Shown here: piece after piece, positions 4,146 to 9,246 of the stretch
Numbering within the stretch: position 1 is the stretch's first letter
Layout: the number at the start of each line of letters is the position of its first letter
From: Burkholderiales bacterium
GTDB taxonomy: Bacteria; Pseudomonadota; Gammaproteobacteria; Burkholderiales; Burkholderiaceae_A
Length of the DNA stretch: 22,978 bases
Assembly (NCBI GenBank): GCA_030828265.1
Contig: JAURCW010000001.1
Coordinates: forward strand, 1 to 22,978
Direction: 5' to 3'
Translations under genes and position numbers: made by a program
Notes under the pieces: generated by a model
Told to the model about the DNA's origin: nothing
Databases searched by the model: none
What the model saw: the letters and a program-made list of their open reading frames with translations, nothing else

Positions 4146-4454
4146 ATGTCCTATTTTGAGCGTCACGTCTTTTTTTGCATCAACCAGCGCGACGGTGGCG
4201 CTGAATGCTGCTCCGAACTTGGCGCAGTCAATGCTCAGGCCCACGCCAAGGCAAGGCTCCAGGCAGCCAACGCACACGGCCCTGGTAAGGTGCGAGCCAA
4301 CCGCGCGGGCTGCCTAGACCGTTGCTCCGAGGGCCCGGTCTTGGTGGTCTACCCGGAAGGCGTCTGGTACCGCTATGTCGACACCAGCGACATTGACGAG
4401 ATTGTCGATCGCCACCTCATCGGCGGTGAGACCGTTGAGCGACTGCGCATCTAG
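4146..4454 (+). CDS. Thioredoxin-like [2Fe-2S] ferredoxin
   Basis: A 102-residue protein of the thioredoxin-fold (2Fe-2S) ferredoxin family. The cluster ligands are readable as C11 (in HVFFCINQR), C21 or C22 (adjacent cysteines), and C56 and C60 (in GCLDRCSEGP), followed by the family's VYPEGVWY segment. Such proteins carry one [2Fe-2S] cluster and transfer electrons or act as a cluster sensor. The partner is not evident. The gene begins 17 bases after the VanZ stop, without a strong ribosome site (only AAAG close by). In Burkholderiales this small ferredoxin commonly precedes the hydrolase, dacA-type, dat and lipBA genes, so it is a conserved neighbour of lipoate synthesis. LipA itself consumes an auxiliary iron-sulfur cluster, but a functional link is only a guess. 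Confidence 0.88.
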   Translation: MSYFERHVFFCINQRDGGAECCSELGAVNAQAHAKARLQAANAHGPGKVRANRAGCLDRCSEGPVLVVYPEGVWYRYVDTSDIDEIVDRHLIGGETVERLRI

Positions 4455-4492: not shown

Positions 4493-5194
4493 TTGAACGC
4501 TCAGACCGAACGCCTCCTCATTCAGGGTCCTGCCGGCGACTTGGAACTGGCCATCGATGAGCCCGGACCGTCAAAACCGTCGCTTGGGCTTGCAGTCATT
4601 GCTCATCCCCATCCTCTTTTTGGCGGCAACCTCGATCACAAGGTGGTTCAGACACTGGTCCGCGCTTTTGTCGACCTGGGTATGGTCTGCGTTCGCCCCA
4701 ATTTTCGAGGGGTTGGAAAGAGTCAGGGCAGCCATGCGGAGGGTCTGGGTGAGCAAGACGACCTCTGGGCGACATGGCAATGGGCCGAGGCCCGTTATGG
4801 GCAGGCGGTTGGGCGGCGTCGCTGGATGGGCGGGTTTTCTTTCGGTGCAGCAGTTGCAAGTTTCATTGCCCAGCAATGGCCCAACAAGCGAGAGGCGCTC
4901 GGCTTGACGCCTCTTGGCCTGCAAGCCTGCATCCTCGTTGGCCTCGCGGTGACCCGTCTAACCCCCGCGAACCTTGGCCTCAACACGGCCATAGTTCACG
5001 GCGAGAGCGACGAGGTTGTGCCGCTTGAGGCTGTCTATCGGTTTGCGCAAGACCAGAAAAAGTCAGTCATCGTCATGCCTGGAGCGGGGCATTTCTTTCA
5101 TGGTCGGCTCACCGAGCTACGAGCCCATATTCAATTTGCCATTCACGGCCTTCTTGCAGGCCAGACGGGCTCGGCCGACGAGGTAGTCACGTGA
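4493..5194 (+). CDS. Alpha/beta hydrolase (CocE/COG2945-like small hydrolase)
   Basis: A 233-residue cytoplasmic alpha/beta-hydrolase. The oxyanion region is AHPHPLFGGN (37-46), the nucleophile elbow is GFSFG with S116, and the likely Asp and His of the triad are D173 (HGESDEVVP) and H200 (PGAGHFFHG). The substrate is unknown; relatives act on esters or thioesters. The only plausible start is a TTG at 4493: the frame is open upstream but contains no ATG or GTG, and the next ATG lies beyond the conserved HPHP segment. No good Shine-Dalgarno sequence precedes it, so translation is likely weak or coupled. Its TGA overlaps the GTG start of the following DacA-like gene by four bases (5191-5194), a clear sign of translational coupling. 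Confidence 0.85.
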   Translation: MNAQTERLLIQGPAGDLELAIDEPGPSKPSLGLAVIAHPHPLFGGNLDHKVVQTLVRAFVDLGMVCVRPNFRGVGKSQGSHAEGLGEQDDLWATWQWAEARYGQAVGRRRWMGGFSFGAAVASFIAQQWPNKREALGLTPLGLQACILVGLAVTRLTPANLGLNTAIVHGESDEVVPLEAVYRFAQDQKKSVIVMPGAGHFFHGRLTELRAHIQFAIHGLLAGQTGSADEVVT

Positions 5195-6447
5195 GGCTCA
5201 GCAGGTGGTTCCTGACAGGCCTTATCCTCGGTGTGAGCCTTCTTGCCAGCTTAAGTCCCATCGCCAAGGCCCAGTCTGGGTCGAATTTCTGGCCCATGCC
5301 CAGTCAAATTTCTGCAGACTCCTGGCTACTCATCGATCTATCCACAGGCCAGACGCTTGCAAGCCTTAACGAAAACCAAGCCATGCATCCGGGAGGCCTG
5401 ACCGCGCTCATGACCTCCTACCTTACCTTCTCTGCCCTGCGCGACAGAGTCATCCGACTTGAACAGGTCATACCCAGTCCGCCAGAAAACGAGATTCCCC
5501 CTGGGCCGCGCATTTTTTTGGGCGCTCAGGGCGCCAATGTGAGAGAACTTCTTGAGGGTGTCCTTGTGCTTGGCGCGCACGATGCTGGCCTGGCGCTTGC
5601 CCGGGCCATTTCAGGCTCGGAGGCGGGCTTTGTTAATCTGATGAACCAGACCGCCCAGAAACTAGGCATGCGCCAGACTGTGTTCGTGAATGCAAGCGGT
5701 GCCTTTCATATCGACACACAAAGCTCTGCTCGCGATCTGGCCATCCTGGCCTCGACCCTCTATCAAGACTTTCCCGATGCACTGAATTACTCAAGCCGTC
5801 GGGAAATTAGCTTTAACGGCATTCGCCAGACCAATCCCAATCGACTCCTTTGGCTTGACCGAAGCGTGGACGGGCTTATGGCCACCGACCTGCCCGGCCG
5901 CTCAAGTGCATTGGTCACGGCCAAACGCCCACAACCCCTTGGTCCTCAGGAGCAGGTTCAACGCAGGATGATGGTTGTCATTAGTCAGGCTGAAACGCCA
6001 GAGAAGCGGGTACAGGACGCCCAAAGGCTGCTCAACTTTGGCTATCAGCAGTTCGATCTGATTCGGCTTTATCGACAGAACGAGGTCTCCGCCACCATCC
6101 GGGTCTACAAGGGCGCAACGGACGCGCTCGATACTGAGTTTCGTCAAGACGTGCTTGTTGCTATTCCACGAAACCAACAAGGTGGCATTCGGTCCGAGCT
6201 GCAGCACCCCCAAGGGGTGGTCGCACCGGTTGTCGCCAATCAGCCCGTGGGCGAACTTCGTGTCTGGTTTGGCTCGCGTCAGATTCACAGTGTGTCCTTG
6301 GTGGCTGCCGATTCCGTGAGGCCTGCTGGCCTTTTAGGCCGTGCCATTGACAGTCTGGTGTTATGGTGGAAATCCTTAGGTTTTCCACACTCCCTCAAGC
6401 AACAGGGCCCTCCCAATGAACGCAAGCTTTCTTCATCATGCTTTTGA
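5191..6447 (+). CDS. D-alanyl-D-alanine carboxypeptidase-like protein (PBP5/DacA family), predicted catalytically inactive
   Basis: A 418-residue exported protein with the full architecture of the DacA/PBP5 family (peptidase family S11): a signal peptide (1-28, cleavage near AKA-QS), a transpeptidase-like domain (about 40-285), a beta-rich PBP5 C-terminal domain (about 288-375) and a C-terminal amphipathic helix (about 380-398) suited to membrane attachment. Framework segments are well preserved: LLIDLSTGQ, LMTSYLTF, GSEAGFVNLMN, SSARDLA, NRLLWLD and LLNFGYQ. All three active-site motifs are gone: SxxK reads GLTA (69-72), SxN reads GAH (128-130) and KTG reads MAT (230-232). It should therefore not hydrolyse D-Ala-D-Ala and may bind peptidoglycan or a partner instead. 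The start is GTG, overlapping the hydrolase stop; the end overlaps dat by 32 bases. The reading frame is intact, so this is not simple decay. Confidence 0.88.
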   Translation: MRLSRWFLTGLILGVSLLASLSPIAKAQSGSNFWPMPSQISADSWLLIDLSTGQTLASLNENQAMHPGGLTALMTSYLTFSALRDRVIRLEQVIPSPPENEIPPGPRIFLGAQGANVRELLEGVLVLGAHDAGLALARAISGSEAGFVNLMNQTAQKLGMRQTVFVNASGAFHIDTQSSARDLAILASTLYQDFPDALNYSSRREISFNGIRQTNPNRLLWLDRSVDGLMATDLPGRSSALVTAKRPQPLGPQEQVQRRMMVVISQAETPEKRVQDAQRLLNFGYQQFDLIRLYRQNEVSATIRVYKGATDALDTEFRQDVLVAIPRNQQGGIRSELQHPQGVVAPVVANQPVGELRVWFGSRQIHSVSLVAADSVRPAGLLGRAIDSLVLWWKSLGFPHSLKQQGPPNERKLSSSCF

Positions 6448-7360
6448 TTCATCCTTTCCCGAAAACCTTGACCCCAAGAGTATTGCCTACCTCAATGGGG
6501 AGTTTCTTGCGCTTGAAAATGCCAAGGTTTCGGCGCTCGACCGAGGCTTTTTATTTGCCGATGGCATCTATGAGGTTGTCCCTGTCTACCGGCGCAAGCC
6601 TTTCCTCTGGTCGAATCATCTGCGCCGGCTCGTAAGAAGCCTCGCGGCCATTCAATTGCCAAGCCCACTTCGTGACGAAGACTGGACAGAGCTTGTGCGC
6701 CAGATGATTGAACACCAGGCCTTCGACGATCAGTTTATTTACCTGCAAATCACCCGTGGATCGGCCAAACGCGACCACGCCTTTCCTAAAAAGGTTCGAC
6801 CCACCGTCTTTGCAATGGCCACCGAGTTCAAGCGCCCTAGCCAGGTCGATCGAGAGAACGGACTAAAGGCCATTACGGTTGGTGACGAGCGTTGGCTGCG
6901 TTGCGACATCAAGTCTGTTGCTCTGTTAGGCAATGTCTTGGCGCGCCAACAGGCCGTTGATCAAGACGCTCATGAAGCCATACTTATTCGAGGCGATGTT
7001 GTAACAGAAGGCGCCTCAAGCAATATCTGGCTTGTTGTTGATGACGAACTGCTTGGCCATCCAAAGGACAACCTTGCGCTCGAAGGCATTCGCTACAGCC
7101 TCATCGAAGAGCTCGCCATAAGCTGTGGACTGAGGCTCAGCCTGCGCAAGCGCAGCCCCGCGGACCTAGCTCGCGCCAGCGAGGTTTTACTTAGCTCAGC
7201 AACCAAAGAGCTCTTGGCCATCACCTCTATTAATCAAAAACCTGTGGGCCAGGGACGGCCGGGACCCGTCTTTCATCAGCTGCGCGAAGCCTATGACAGG
7301 GCCATTGACATGGAATGCCCAAAGGCCGAATTGTCTGAGGCGGGCTCCTCAGCAGGCTAG
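6416..7360 (+). CDS. dat: D-amino-acid aminotransferase (fold-type IV PLP enzyme)
   Basis: A 314-residue aminotransferase class IV protein. The N-terminal part has AYLNGEF and LDRGFLFADGIYEVVPVY (about 25-58). The PLP-binding lysine is K166 in RCDIKSVALLGNVLARQ, the arrangement of Bacillus D-amino-acid transaminase. TEGASSNIW (197-205) is the family's second signature with the PLP-contacting glutamate. D-amino-acid transaminases interconvert D-alanine and D-glutamate with their keto acids; branched-chain or 4-amino-4-deoxychorismate lyase relatives share the fold, but the CDIKS motif favours Dat. The ATG at 6416 lies inside the end of the DacA-like gene and is the only start ahead of the conserved AYLNG segment. 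That extra N-terminal stretch of about 20 residues is longer than usual. It belongs to the same operon as the genes on both sides. Confidence 0.88.
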   Translation: MNASFLHHAFDSSFPENLDPKSIAYLNGEFLALENAKVSALDRGFLFADGIYEVVPVYRRKPFLWSNHLRRLVRSLAAIQLPSPLRDEDWTELVRQMIEHQAFDDQFIYLQITRGSAKRDHAFPKKVRPTVFAMATEFKRPSQVDRENGLKAITVGDERWLRCDIKSVALLGNVLARQQAVDQDAHEAILIRGDVVTEGASSNIWLVVDDELLGHPKDNLALEGIRYSLIEELAISCGLRLSLRKRSPADLARASEVLLSSATKELLAITSINQKPVGQGRPGPVFHQLREAYDRAIDMECPKAELSEAGSSAG

Positions 7361-7368
7361 CCCTATCG

Positions 7369-7647
7369 ATGATGCAGATTCCCGACCCGCAAGAATCACT
7401 CATTGAATTTCCTTGCGAGTTCCCAATTAAGGTCATGGGACTGCGGCGCGAGGGTTTCGCCCAAGAAATGGTCAAGGCCCTCGCCGACCTTGCACCGGAT
7501 ATCGCTGCCGAAAAGATTGAAATGCGGGTCAGTAAACAGGCCACCTACATAAGCCTCACCATTTATGTTCAGACGCATTCCAAAGCCCACCTCGACCAAA
7601 TCTATTTCTGCCTAACGGGCCATCCATGGGTCAAAGTGGTTCTCTAG
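7369..7647 (+). CDS. DUF493 (YbeD-like, UPF0250) protein
   Basis: A 92-residue protein matching the YbeD/UPF0250 family: an N-terminal LIEFPCEFPIKVMG segment, a central helix-rich part, then YISLTIYVQTHSKAHLDQIYFCL and a C-terminal VKVVL. The fold is a small ACT-like alpha/beta domain and the biochemical role is unknown. Genes of this family sit next to lipB in very many proteobacteria, as here, which suggests a regulatory or accessory link to lipoate metabolism (inference). Either of two consecutive ATG codons (7369 or 7372) could be used; no clear Shine-Dalgarno precedes them, and dat ends 8 bases upstream. Its 3' end overlaps the lipB start by 22 bases. Confidence 0.88.
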   Translation: MMQIPDPQESLIEFPCEFPIKVMGLRREGFAQEMVKALADLAPDIAAEKIEMRVSKQATYISLTIYVQTHSKAHLDQIYFCLTGHPWVKVVL

Positions 7648-8282
7648 TTGTCTGGCCCTCGAGTCGAGGGCTTGACTACCAGGCTGCGGTTGAACGAATG
7701 ACGAGCTACACCCTAGGGCGCATCGAGCAGTCCGACGACGCCTTGTGGCCTGTCGAGCATCCTGCGGTCTTTAGCCTAGGGCTTGCAGCTCAAAAGCATC
7801 ATCTCTTAAATACCGAGTCGATTGCTATTGTGCAGGCAGACCGCGGCGGTCAGGTCACCTACCATGGACCAGGTCAGTTGGTGATTTATTGCCTCTTAAA
7901 TCTTCGTCGTTATCAGCTCACGGTCCGAAGCCTGGTTACGCTTTTAGAGTCTGCGCTCATTGCGTTCATTGAAGGGCTTGGTGTCAAACCCGCCTACCGG
8001 GTGGTTGGTGCACCAGGGGTCTACGTTAATTGTCAGTGTGAGCGCCATAAAATTGCGGCCCTTGGCCTGAAAATTAAAAATGGCTGTTCTTACCATGGCG
8101 TTGCCTTAAACCTTCAGATGGACCTTGAACCCTTCGAGCGAATCAACCCCTGCGGTGTGCGAGGATTGAAGGTCACGGACCTGTCTAAAATGGGTGTCAC
8201 AATGCCATGGGACGAGGCGGCCCAGCGTGTCTGCCAGATCATCACTGAAATGCTCTTAAGTCGAAGGCCTCATGACCACTAA
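7626..8282 (+). CDS. lipB: Octanoyl-[acyl-carrier-protein]-protein N-octanoyltransferase
   Basis: LipB moves the octanoyl group from octanoyl-ACP onto lipoyl domains of 2-oxoacid dehydrogenases and the glycine cleavage H protein, the first step of endogenous lipoate synthesis. The 218-residue protein shows the signature [16 protein letters not shown] (71-86), the catalytic lysine region with K142 ([10 protein letters not shown]) and the acyl-accepting cysteine C176 in INPCG, followed by LKVTDL. Length is normal for the family. The ATG at 7626 is inside the preceding DUF493 gene, and no alternative start precedes the conserved N-terminus. It overlaps lipA by 11 bases, so lipB and lipA are very likely translated from one message. 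Confidence 0.95.
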
Positions 8283-9246
8283 TCCTAGCCCCAGCTCTGG
8301 GGAGCCTACCGCAGCCGTGAAGAAAAAGGGGGCTGCAAAAACTCGCCTCATCCCTATCGTTGCCCACACCGAAAGCCTTGGTCCGAAACCCAGCTGGATT
8401 CGTGTGAAAGCCCCAAGCCTCGGCTCCCGGTTTTTTGAAATCAAAGCGATTTTGCGGGAACACCGGCTTCACACCGTCTGTGAAGAGGCCTCCTGCCCCA
8501 ACATTGGTGAATGTTTTGGCAAGGGGACGGCAACCTTCATGATCATGGGCGATCGTTGCACTCGCCGCTGCCCTTTTTGTGATGTTGGCCACGGACGCCC
8601 CGATCCACTTGATACCGAAGAGCCGGAGAACCTTGCAAAGACCATTGCCGCCTTAAAACTGCGCTACGTTGTTGTCACAAGCGTCGACCGAGACGACCTC
8701 AAGGACGGGGGCGCAAACCACTTCGTGCAATGCATTCAAGAAATTCGCAGCCGTGCTCCAACCACTCAAATTGAAGTGCTCGTGCCCGATTTCCGCGGAC
8801 GACTCGATCGAGCGCTTGACATTTTAGTCACGGCTCCGCCCGACGTAATGAACCATAACCTAGAGACCGTTCCACGGCTCTACAGAACGGCACGTCCGGG
8901 GTCAGACTACCTGCATTCTCTTAGGCTTTTAAAAGAGTTCAAGCAGCGCGTGCCTGGAGTACCTACCAAAAGCGGCTTAATGCTTGGGCTTGGCGAAACC
9001 AACGAGGAGATCGTGCAGGTGATGCACGATCTTCGGGCCCATGACGTCGACATGATCACCATCGGGCAGTACCTGGCTCCATCCACGGCCCATCTCCCCG
9101 TTCTACGCTACGTCAGCCTGGAAGAGTTTGATTTTCTTGAAGCCACTGCAAAAGAGCTGGGCTTTGCCCATGCGGCAGTTGGGCCTTTGGTTCGCTCGTC
9201 TTACCACGCGGACCACCAGGCCGAGCTGGCTGGCTTCACATCCTAA
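8272..9246 (+). CDS. lipA: Lipoyl synthase (radical SAM)
   Basis: LipA inserts two sulfur atoms into protein-bound octanoyl groups, completing lipoyl cofactor synthesis. Both iron-sulfur clusters are visible in the 324-residue protein: the auxiliary cluster motif C70-x4-C75-x5-C81 ([12 protein letters not shown]) and the radical-SAM motif C96-x3-C100-x2-C103 (CTRRCPFC). The C-terminal RSSYHA (308-313) supplies the conserved serine that caps the auxiliary cluster. The first ~40 residues are a Lys/Pro/Ala-rich N-terminal extension before SWIRVKAP, common in betaproteobacteria. The start at 8272 overlaps lipB. It is the last gene of the run and meets tlpA tail to tail across 28 bases, with no obvious U-rich hairpin terminator. 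Confidence 0.97.

Follow-up and report, generated by a model that had tools for sequence, protein, structure and literature searches.

A DacA/PBP5 homologue without catalytic motifs that is conserved in a genus of Burkholderiales

Among D,D-carboxypeptidases, penicillin-binding protein 5 (PBP5, DacA) is the textbook example. It has long been asked why its particular membrane attachment matters to its role, apart from giving it access to substrate. The locus described here poses that question in another form: what is a dacA gene kept for once its product has lost the residues of catalysis? The stretch analysed, called the window throughout, comprises 22,978 nucleotides of the forward strand of a Burkholderiales bacterium (GenBank assembly GCA_030828265.1, contig JAURCW010000001.1, positions 1 to 22,978), and the gene lies at 5191-6447. 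Families, genera, genomes and loci are labeled f, g, G and L; the window's family, f1, comprises 26 genomes and its genus, g1, 11. We find that the gene is orthologous to dacA, that its motifs are lost throughout the genus, that a sister genus holds an intermediate, and that the gene has stayed under strong purifying selection after the loss. In our judgment this dacA has probably become a pseudoenzyme kept for a job free of catalysis, as a membrane-anchored scaffold or adaptor in the envelope.

A dacA orthologue with all three motifs replaced

The open reading frame is unbroken from its GTG start. Pfam places Peptidase_S11 at residues 37-229 (138 bits, cut-off 27.6) and, after it, PBP5_C at residues 288-376 (46 bits, cut-off 21.2), and the two highest hydrophobic moments belong to the 14-residue segments starting at 377 and 376, in agreement with the intact, full-length DacA/PBP5 frame described in an earlier note on this DNA. 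Three NCBIfam models (DacD, DacA and PRK10001.1, a third D-Ala-D-Ala carboxypeptidase) cover nearly the whole protein at scores far under their cut-offs; the DacA and DacD equivalog cut-offs were not reached (139 and 178 bits vs. 694 and 610). The features of the gene are as follows.

5191..6447, plus strand: dacA orthologue, 418 amino acids, three catalytic motifs replaced (open reading frame, Pfam, alignment, phmmer)
5191..5274, plus strand: putative signal peptide, a hydrophobic N-terminus ending near AKAQ (by eye, mean hydropathy)
5299..5877, plus strand: Peptidase_S11 domain, catalytic motifs lost (Pfam)
5395..5406, plus strand: SxxK position, GLTA (alignment, codon positions)
5572..5580, plus strand: SxN position, GAH (alignment, codon positions)
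5878..5886, plus strand: KTG position, MAT (alignment, codon positions)
6052..6318, plus strand: PBP5_C domain (Pfam)
6325..6372, plus strand: amphipathic C-terminal anchor AGLLGRAIDSLVLWWK (hydrophobic moment, conservation)

The codon positions given earlier for the three replaced motifs are exact. Motif columns were read from an alignment of 144 DacA sequences from the order Burkholderiales, in which GLTA, GAH and MAT fall in the SxxK, SxN and KTG columns without gaps inside the motifs. In a phmmer search against solved structures, the top match was the D-ala-D-ala-carboxypeptidase 4k91 (E-value 2e-47), whose SLTK, SGN and KTG align to the same three strings. A scan of the whole protein found no S..K or [KHR][TS]G string, which rejects an alternative active site elsewhere in it; [SY].N occurs twice, at residues 58 and 207, both times outside the motif column. 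In families other than the seven affected, every copy (75 of 75: 73 orthologues and two second copies) carries all three motifs, and chance is therefore rejected as the explanation of their loss.

Replacement extends to the substrate pocket. Apart from that of S44, the PBP5 roles of the pocket residues compared here (K47, S110, N112, D113, H151, R198, K213, T214, H216 and R248) are ones we assume. The equivalents of K47, S110, N112, H151, K213, T214 and H216 are replaced in all ten g1 copies, and that of S44 in nine, the tenth having a Ser by chance, within SALA. Position K213 holds Met, Ile, Leu, Tyr or Phe in g1, and R198 is Pro in the four closest g1 genomes. At the N112 position, 14 of the 17 f1 proteins have His, the others Leu, Gln and Arg (G010, G004 and G008, respectively); the following Asp, equivalent to D113, is retained in 17/17 f1 and 75/75 intact proteins. 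The proposal that framework residues were selectively kept thus stands in outline, with the R248 equivalent present in 17/17 f1 proteins, and fails for H151, T214, H216 and, in the four genomes, R198.

The gene is the true dacA of its lineage, at a conserved dacA locus, and not a paralogue. In 399 genomes of the order, f1 orthologues reach at least 396 bits and the best match outside f1 reaches 262; the DacA of G008, which lies outside this sample, scores 217. The neighboring genes are these.

4146..4454, plus strand: a gene that we take to be (2Fe-2S) ferredoxin-like; syntenic neighbor (synteny comparison)
4493..5194, plus strand: alpha/beta hydrolase gene, overlapping the dacA start by 4 bases (open reading frame, Pfam, synteny)
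6416..7360, plus strand: dat, D-amino-acid transaminase, overlapping the dacA end (open reading frame, Pfam/NCBIfam, synteny)
7369..7647, plus strand: DUF493 gene (Pfam, synteny)
7626..8282, plus strand: lipB, lipoyl ligase fold, LplA-B_cat (Pfam, synteny)
8272..9246, plus strand: lipA, radical SAM, LIAS_N (Pfam, synteny)

The order ferredoxin-like-hydrolase-dacA-dat-DUF493-lipB-lipA is the same in the window, in four relatives with longer flanks (L032-L035) and in G008, as well as in two g2 genomes as far as the fetched flanks extend; G072, G067 and G028, members of the order with intact motifs, retain parts of it in the same sequence. The overlap with dat reported earlier is confirmed, and the arrangement is ordinary: dacA-dat-DUF493 also occurs with intact DacA, which rejects a special tie to a dat operon. 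At the G008 locus (L082, minus strand), dat and DUF493 stand in a single open frame of 407 amino acids, an apparent fusion. A link to defense systems is rejected by zero PADLOC matches, and an assembly or frameshift artefact by separate genomes at 90, 91 and 75% identity with nearly the same form. The intact DacA elsewhere in the genome that the earlier note proposed to look for was not found; the window copy is the only S11 gene found in that genome, whose assembly is 76% complete.

Stepwise loss and later constraint in the family

A dacA orthologue is present in 10 of the 11 g1 genomes (in G007 the dat tail stands at a contig start). All ten have lost all three motifs, their frames are intact across divergent species, and no stop codon interrupts any of the matched stretches. 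The motif sets, in the order SxxK/SxN/KTG, are listed by genome.

GLTA / GAH or AAH / MAT or MAA: G000, G005, G006, G001
GLSV/GAH/IAI: G009
GLSG/GAH/YAT: G002, G003
GLTL/GAQ/FAT: G004
GLTS/GAL/LAT: G010
SALA/QAR/LGS: G008, a very divergent copy (branch length 1.95 in the quick tree described below)

The sister genus g2 retains SxxK in seven of seven copies (SLTK, SLSK or SMAK), while the SxN position is GAH (NAH in G011) and the KTG position MTG in all seven. The earlier note asked whether the GLTA/GAH/MAT form is a clade: the motif-less form is one, with an INTERMEDIATE, g2 being the intermediate state. The simplest order of events would be loss of SxN and of the KTG Lys, followed by loss of SxxK. 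No dacA orthologue was found in the eight genomes of genus g3, and six g3 dat loci, read with flanks of 1.5 kb, show neither dacA nor the hydrolase gene; at L231 and L236 the synteny reading places the ferredoxin-like gene directly beside dat.

Selection was estimated as omega (dN/dS, nonsynonymous over synonymous divergence) by NG86 on codon alignments, with intervals from a bootstrap of codons. The most reliable pair, G000/G005 (dS 0.86), gave 0.066 [0.042-0.095] for dacA, 0.031 [0.014-0.055] for its S11 domain alone and 0.033 [0.011-0.063] for PBP5_C with linker, next to 0.089 [0.059-0.131] for dat and 0.174 [0.110-0.269] for the hydrolase gene. Values for dacA, dat and hydrolase were 0.032 [0.019-0.050], 0.080 [0.052-0.133] and 0.109 in G000/G006, 0.038, 0.083 and 0.142 in G005/G006, and 0.025, 0.049 and 0.063 in the g2 pair G017/G023; G002/G003 gave 0.044 for dacA, with dat not found at the G002 locus and hydrolase dS undefined. 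Across the four close g1 pairs, dacA omega is thus 0.03-0.07 and that of the dead S11 domain about 0.03-0.05, in no case above the dat and hydrolase values that these pairs offer for comparison. To gauge how fast the gene normally evolves we used dN(dacA)/dN(dat), which is 0.24-0.78 in seven f1 pairs vs. 0.50-1.70 in 12 intact-motif pairs (one further pair, the 13th, lacks dat). Identities to the window are as follows.

G005: dacA 89.4%, lipA 95.1%, dat 83.4%
G006: dacA 91.4%, lipA 91.7%, dat 77.0%
G001: dacA 72.5%, lipA 73.3%, dat 57.2%
G004: dacA 54.4%, lipA 76.3%, dat 51.6%

The dead enzyme in f1 is under full constraint, in its catalytic and C-terminal domains alike, and the ratios that the earlier note proposed to compute for the clade are far below 1. 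The pseudo-carboxypeptidase proposed earlier, under selection for a non-catalytic role, came through these comparisons and is supported by the sequence data.

The mean identity of the anchor is 79.7% among nine g1 proteins vs. 53.3% in 40 intact ones, and GLLGRA(I/V)D occurs in 17/17 f1 proteins. Compared with the other nine g1 proteins, the copy in G008 has 33-39% identity in S11, 30-34% in PBP5_C and 75-88% in the 16-residue anchor. When PBP5_C identity is subtracted from S11 identity, three groups from intact families give +4.9 to +7.5, vs. about 0 in f1, -5.5 in f2 and -2.9 in f19, the last three being degenerate groups. This shift towards PBP5_C is not universal, since the difference is +9.9 in f24 degenerate copies, +3.9 in f18 and +0.9 in f44 degenerate copies, and the anchors of degenerate f44 copies resemble one another less than expected.

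Motif loss in other families

The stepwise loss in f1 and its recurrence in other families go beyond the earlier note. Intact motif sets among the 144 DacA sequences are distributed as follows. Once the first matches had appeared, sampling was deepened in f2, f18, f19, f22, f24 and f44, so the counts are not order-wide rates.

f1: 0 of 17
f2: 1 of 5
f18: 4 of 9
f19: 0 of 5
f22: 11 of 12
f24: 7 of 12
f44: 5 of 9
others: 75 of 75

In the first pass outside f1, eight of 87 rows were degenerate (one genome appeared twice, and two rows were second copies). The 24 degenerate DacA outside f1, from six families, are all full length (331-347 core residues; intact reference 331); nine lack all three motifs, and the remainder one or two. 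With the motif columns left out of the tree, at least seven changes between intact and degenerate states are required; the minimum per motif is six for SxxK, four for SxN and seven for KTG. This was a quick tree with SH-aLRT support only, in which some degenerate rows are long-branched and the joining of f18 and f19 may be false. The losses in f1 and f2 look separate because their grouping has a support of only 79 and the first f2 branch, G075, is intact.

Outside the order, with one genome per family, DacA is intact in 126 of 128 copies; these are 137 matching genomes minus nine, among which are the weakest and the partial matches, so the true loss rate is maybe somewhat higher. The other two, G497 (L344) and G417 (L348), belong to two gammaproteobacterial families and lack all three motifs.

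Constraint after motif loss varies among the families. In f2, dN(dacA)/dN(dat) is 1.10 and 1.22 in two pairs and 2.18 in a mixed pair; in the f24 degenerate pair it is 4.57. Omega is 0.32 and 0.24 in two f18 motif-loss pairs, 0.041 in one f19 pair (undefined in another), and 0.027 and 0.117 in f44 motif-loss pairs, where intact pairs give 0.120 and 0.059. In f24, a compact S11-like protein of 266-273 amino acids (L220, L221 and L222), which has SLTK, SAN or SSN, and KTG and is too short to include PBP5_C, occurs in G048 and G094, whose DacA is degenerate, and in G326, whose DacA is intact; it may have taken over catalysis.

Among 50 genomes without a clear DacA match, three (G170, G265 and G350), all from f19, encode a protein with a PBP5_C domain (46-52 bits) and no other Pfam match at E-values up to 1. 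The proteins are 304, 412 and 391 amino acids long, and their positions are L227:952-1863, L228:1444-2679 (minus strand) and L229:1450-2622 (minus strand). They look like dacA remnants with a catalytic domain beyond recognition, because neighbors of the dacA locus adjoin them (hydrolase, DUF493 and lipB in G265 and G350, DUF493 in G170), and they support, without proving, PBP5_C as the part that matters in f19. No PBP5_C match was found in the other 47 of the 50 genomes (29 of 32 when completeness is 90% or more and contamination 5% or less), and many genomes can therefore dispense with the entire protein.

Possible roles of the motif-less protein

E. coli PBP5/DacA shares with the window's DacA its domain order, the probable signal peptide, the amphipathic anchor and near full-length homology; the window's protein differs in that all three motifs and most substrate contacts are replaced. 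The closest engineered counterpart is PBP5 S44G, which likewise has Gly for the nucleophilic Ser and is membrane-anchored. S44G is inactive, localizes to the septum weakly or not at all and fails to rescue the shape defect; PBP5 that lacks its anchor digests pentapeptides equally well and complements only slightly (PMC2909392). S44G is a single laboratory change, whereas the window's DacA is natural and conserved with every motif changed. Given how S44G behaves in E. coli, the window's DacA cannot do the job of PBP5 by the known route, and very probably it is no enzyme of the ordinary sort.

Who, then, removes D-Ala? A second S11 protein (PF00768), which we take to be PbpG-type, is encoded elsewhere in 22 of the 26 f1 genomes; it has the S11 domain in common with the window's DacA and, unlike it, keeps its motifs (SxxK, S(E/D)N and KTG in 22/22 copies read). 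The profile search of the 26 genomes did not find it in G000 or G001. DacB (S13) exceeds its cut-off in 20 of the 26 (in G008 as two pieces of one frame), with S..K, SNN and KTG in 10/10 loci read. Six genomes gave no DacB match: G000, G001, G005 and G006, which form the window's closest group, plus G007 and G022. These absences mean that modulation of an active paralogue, one of the roles suggested earlier, would not be general. A VanY-type replacement is rejected (0/26). PF00144 (beta-lactamase/AmpH-type) matches nine of the 26 genomes, two of which (G008 and G023) are S11-gene matches only, leaving seven. G001, 97% complete, has the motif-less DacA and one PF00144 protein and no PbpG, DacB or VanY match (synteny not checked for PbpG and DacB). 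Loss of L,D-transpeptidation is rejected by YkuD in 25 of 26 genomes. The E. coli L,D-transpeptidase YcbB relies on tetrapeptides made by PBP5 (PMC5089857), and from this together with the YkuD count some D,D-carboxypeptidase activity probably remains in f1. It perhaps comes from the PbpG-type protein or from class A penicillin-binding proteins (PBPs); one report states that the latter can have such activity and that the activity of A. baumannii PBP6b depends on its catalytic Ser (PMC13059705).

Among other explanations, the one that survives best is a ligand-binding pseudoenzyme that holds muropeptide stems uncut, as decoy, sensor or targeting device. The retained R248 equivalent and an S11 domain about as constrained as PBP5_C would suit it, as would the dependence of E. 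coli PBP5 localization on substrate recognition (PMC2909392). Stem-peptide binding, also put forward in the earlier note, is nevertheless weakened because most substrate-pocket residues are gone in g1, with Pro for R198 in the window's own group, and we consider it unlikely. Slow pseudogene decay, in which carboxypeptidase activity is no longer needed and the gene drifts to loss, could account for the absence of dacA from the g3 locus, the divergence of G008, the fast f24 pair (4.6 times faster than dat), the f18 ratios (0.24-0.32) and the several genera without a clear DacA match. For the window's lineage decay is rejected because of the omega of the four close pairs; with the low values for the dead domain and the ten stop-free stretches added, it is quite improbable overall. 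Changed chemistry, a still-active enzyme with a new site, for example around the His of GAH, has in its favor the frequency of that His, the invariant Asp after it (found in all intact proteins as well) and the Ser/Lys pair retained in g2, yet the His is exchanged in three genomes and the residues at K213 in g1 resemble cavity filling and not a new catalytic set, which leaves it similarly improbable.

We therefore return to the pseudoenzyme kept as an envelope scaffold or adaptor. In this proposal the window's DacA would be exported, its amphipathic helix would hold it on the outer face of the inner membrane, and there it would hold or place other envelope proteins, D-Ala removal having been dropped or passed to the PbpG-type paralogue, to DacB where present, or to class A PBPs. 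Inactive peptidase homologues are likewise kept for protein-protein interaction, regulation or scaffolding, according to a review that covers metallopeptidases, unlike the S11/DacA case here (PMC11266112). Among the matches listed from the open-access literature, judged by title and the start of the abstract, none describes a natural motif-less S11/DacA. Pseudoenzymes are known as a kind; within that literature, a natural, selected pseudo-DacA with repeated origin is apparently new.

Several observations weigh against this proposal. The sister group g3 has no dacA, which makes the role dispensable in that group. In G000/G005 the intervals for dacA and dat overlap, and omega is higher in the three distant g1 pairs, all with saturated dS (0.113 in G000/G001, 0.236 in G002/G004 and 0.130 in G009/G010, the last above its hydrolase value of 0.110). 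Measured against lipA, dacA is on par in G006 and G001 and less conserved in G005 and G004. The f24 and f18 motif-loss lineages look relaxed, and motif loss alone is therefore no proof of a new role. The failure of S44G to complement in E. coli (PMC2909392) means that the known shape role needs catalysis.

A broader reading, plausible though held more tentatively than the scaffold proposal, is that PBP5_C and the anchor give Burkholderiales DacA a second function, one that does not depend on catalysis. The gene could then lose its enzyme activity, about seven times in the order, and still be kept because of that function; f1 would have a dedicated non-enzyme, and f19 (three genomes) would have kept PBP5_C with an unrecognizable catalytic domain. 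A gene annotated as S11/DacA should be taken for a carboxypeptidase only after its motifs have been examined. The natural series from intact DacA through an SxxK-only intermediate to a motif-less but conserved protein separates two functions without engineering and, with the losses in further families, marks PBP5_C and the anchor as the part worth study.

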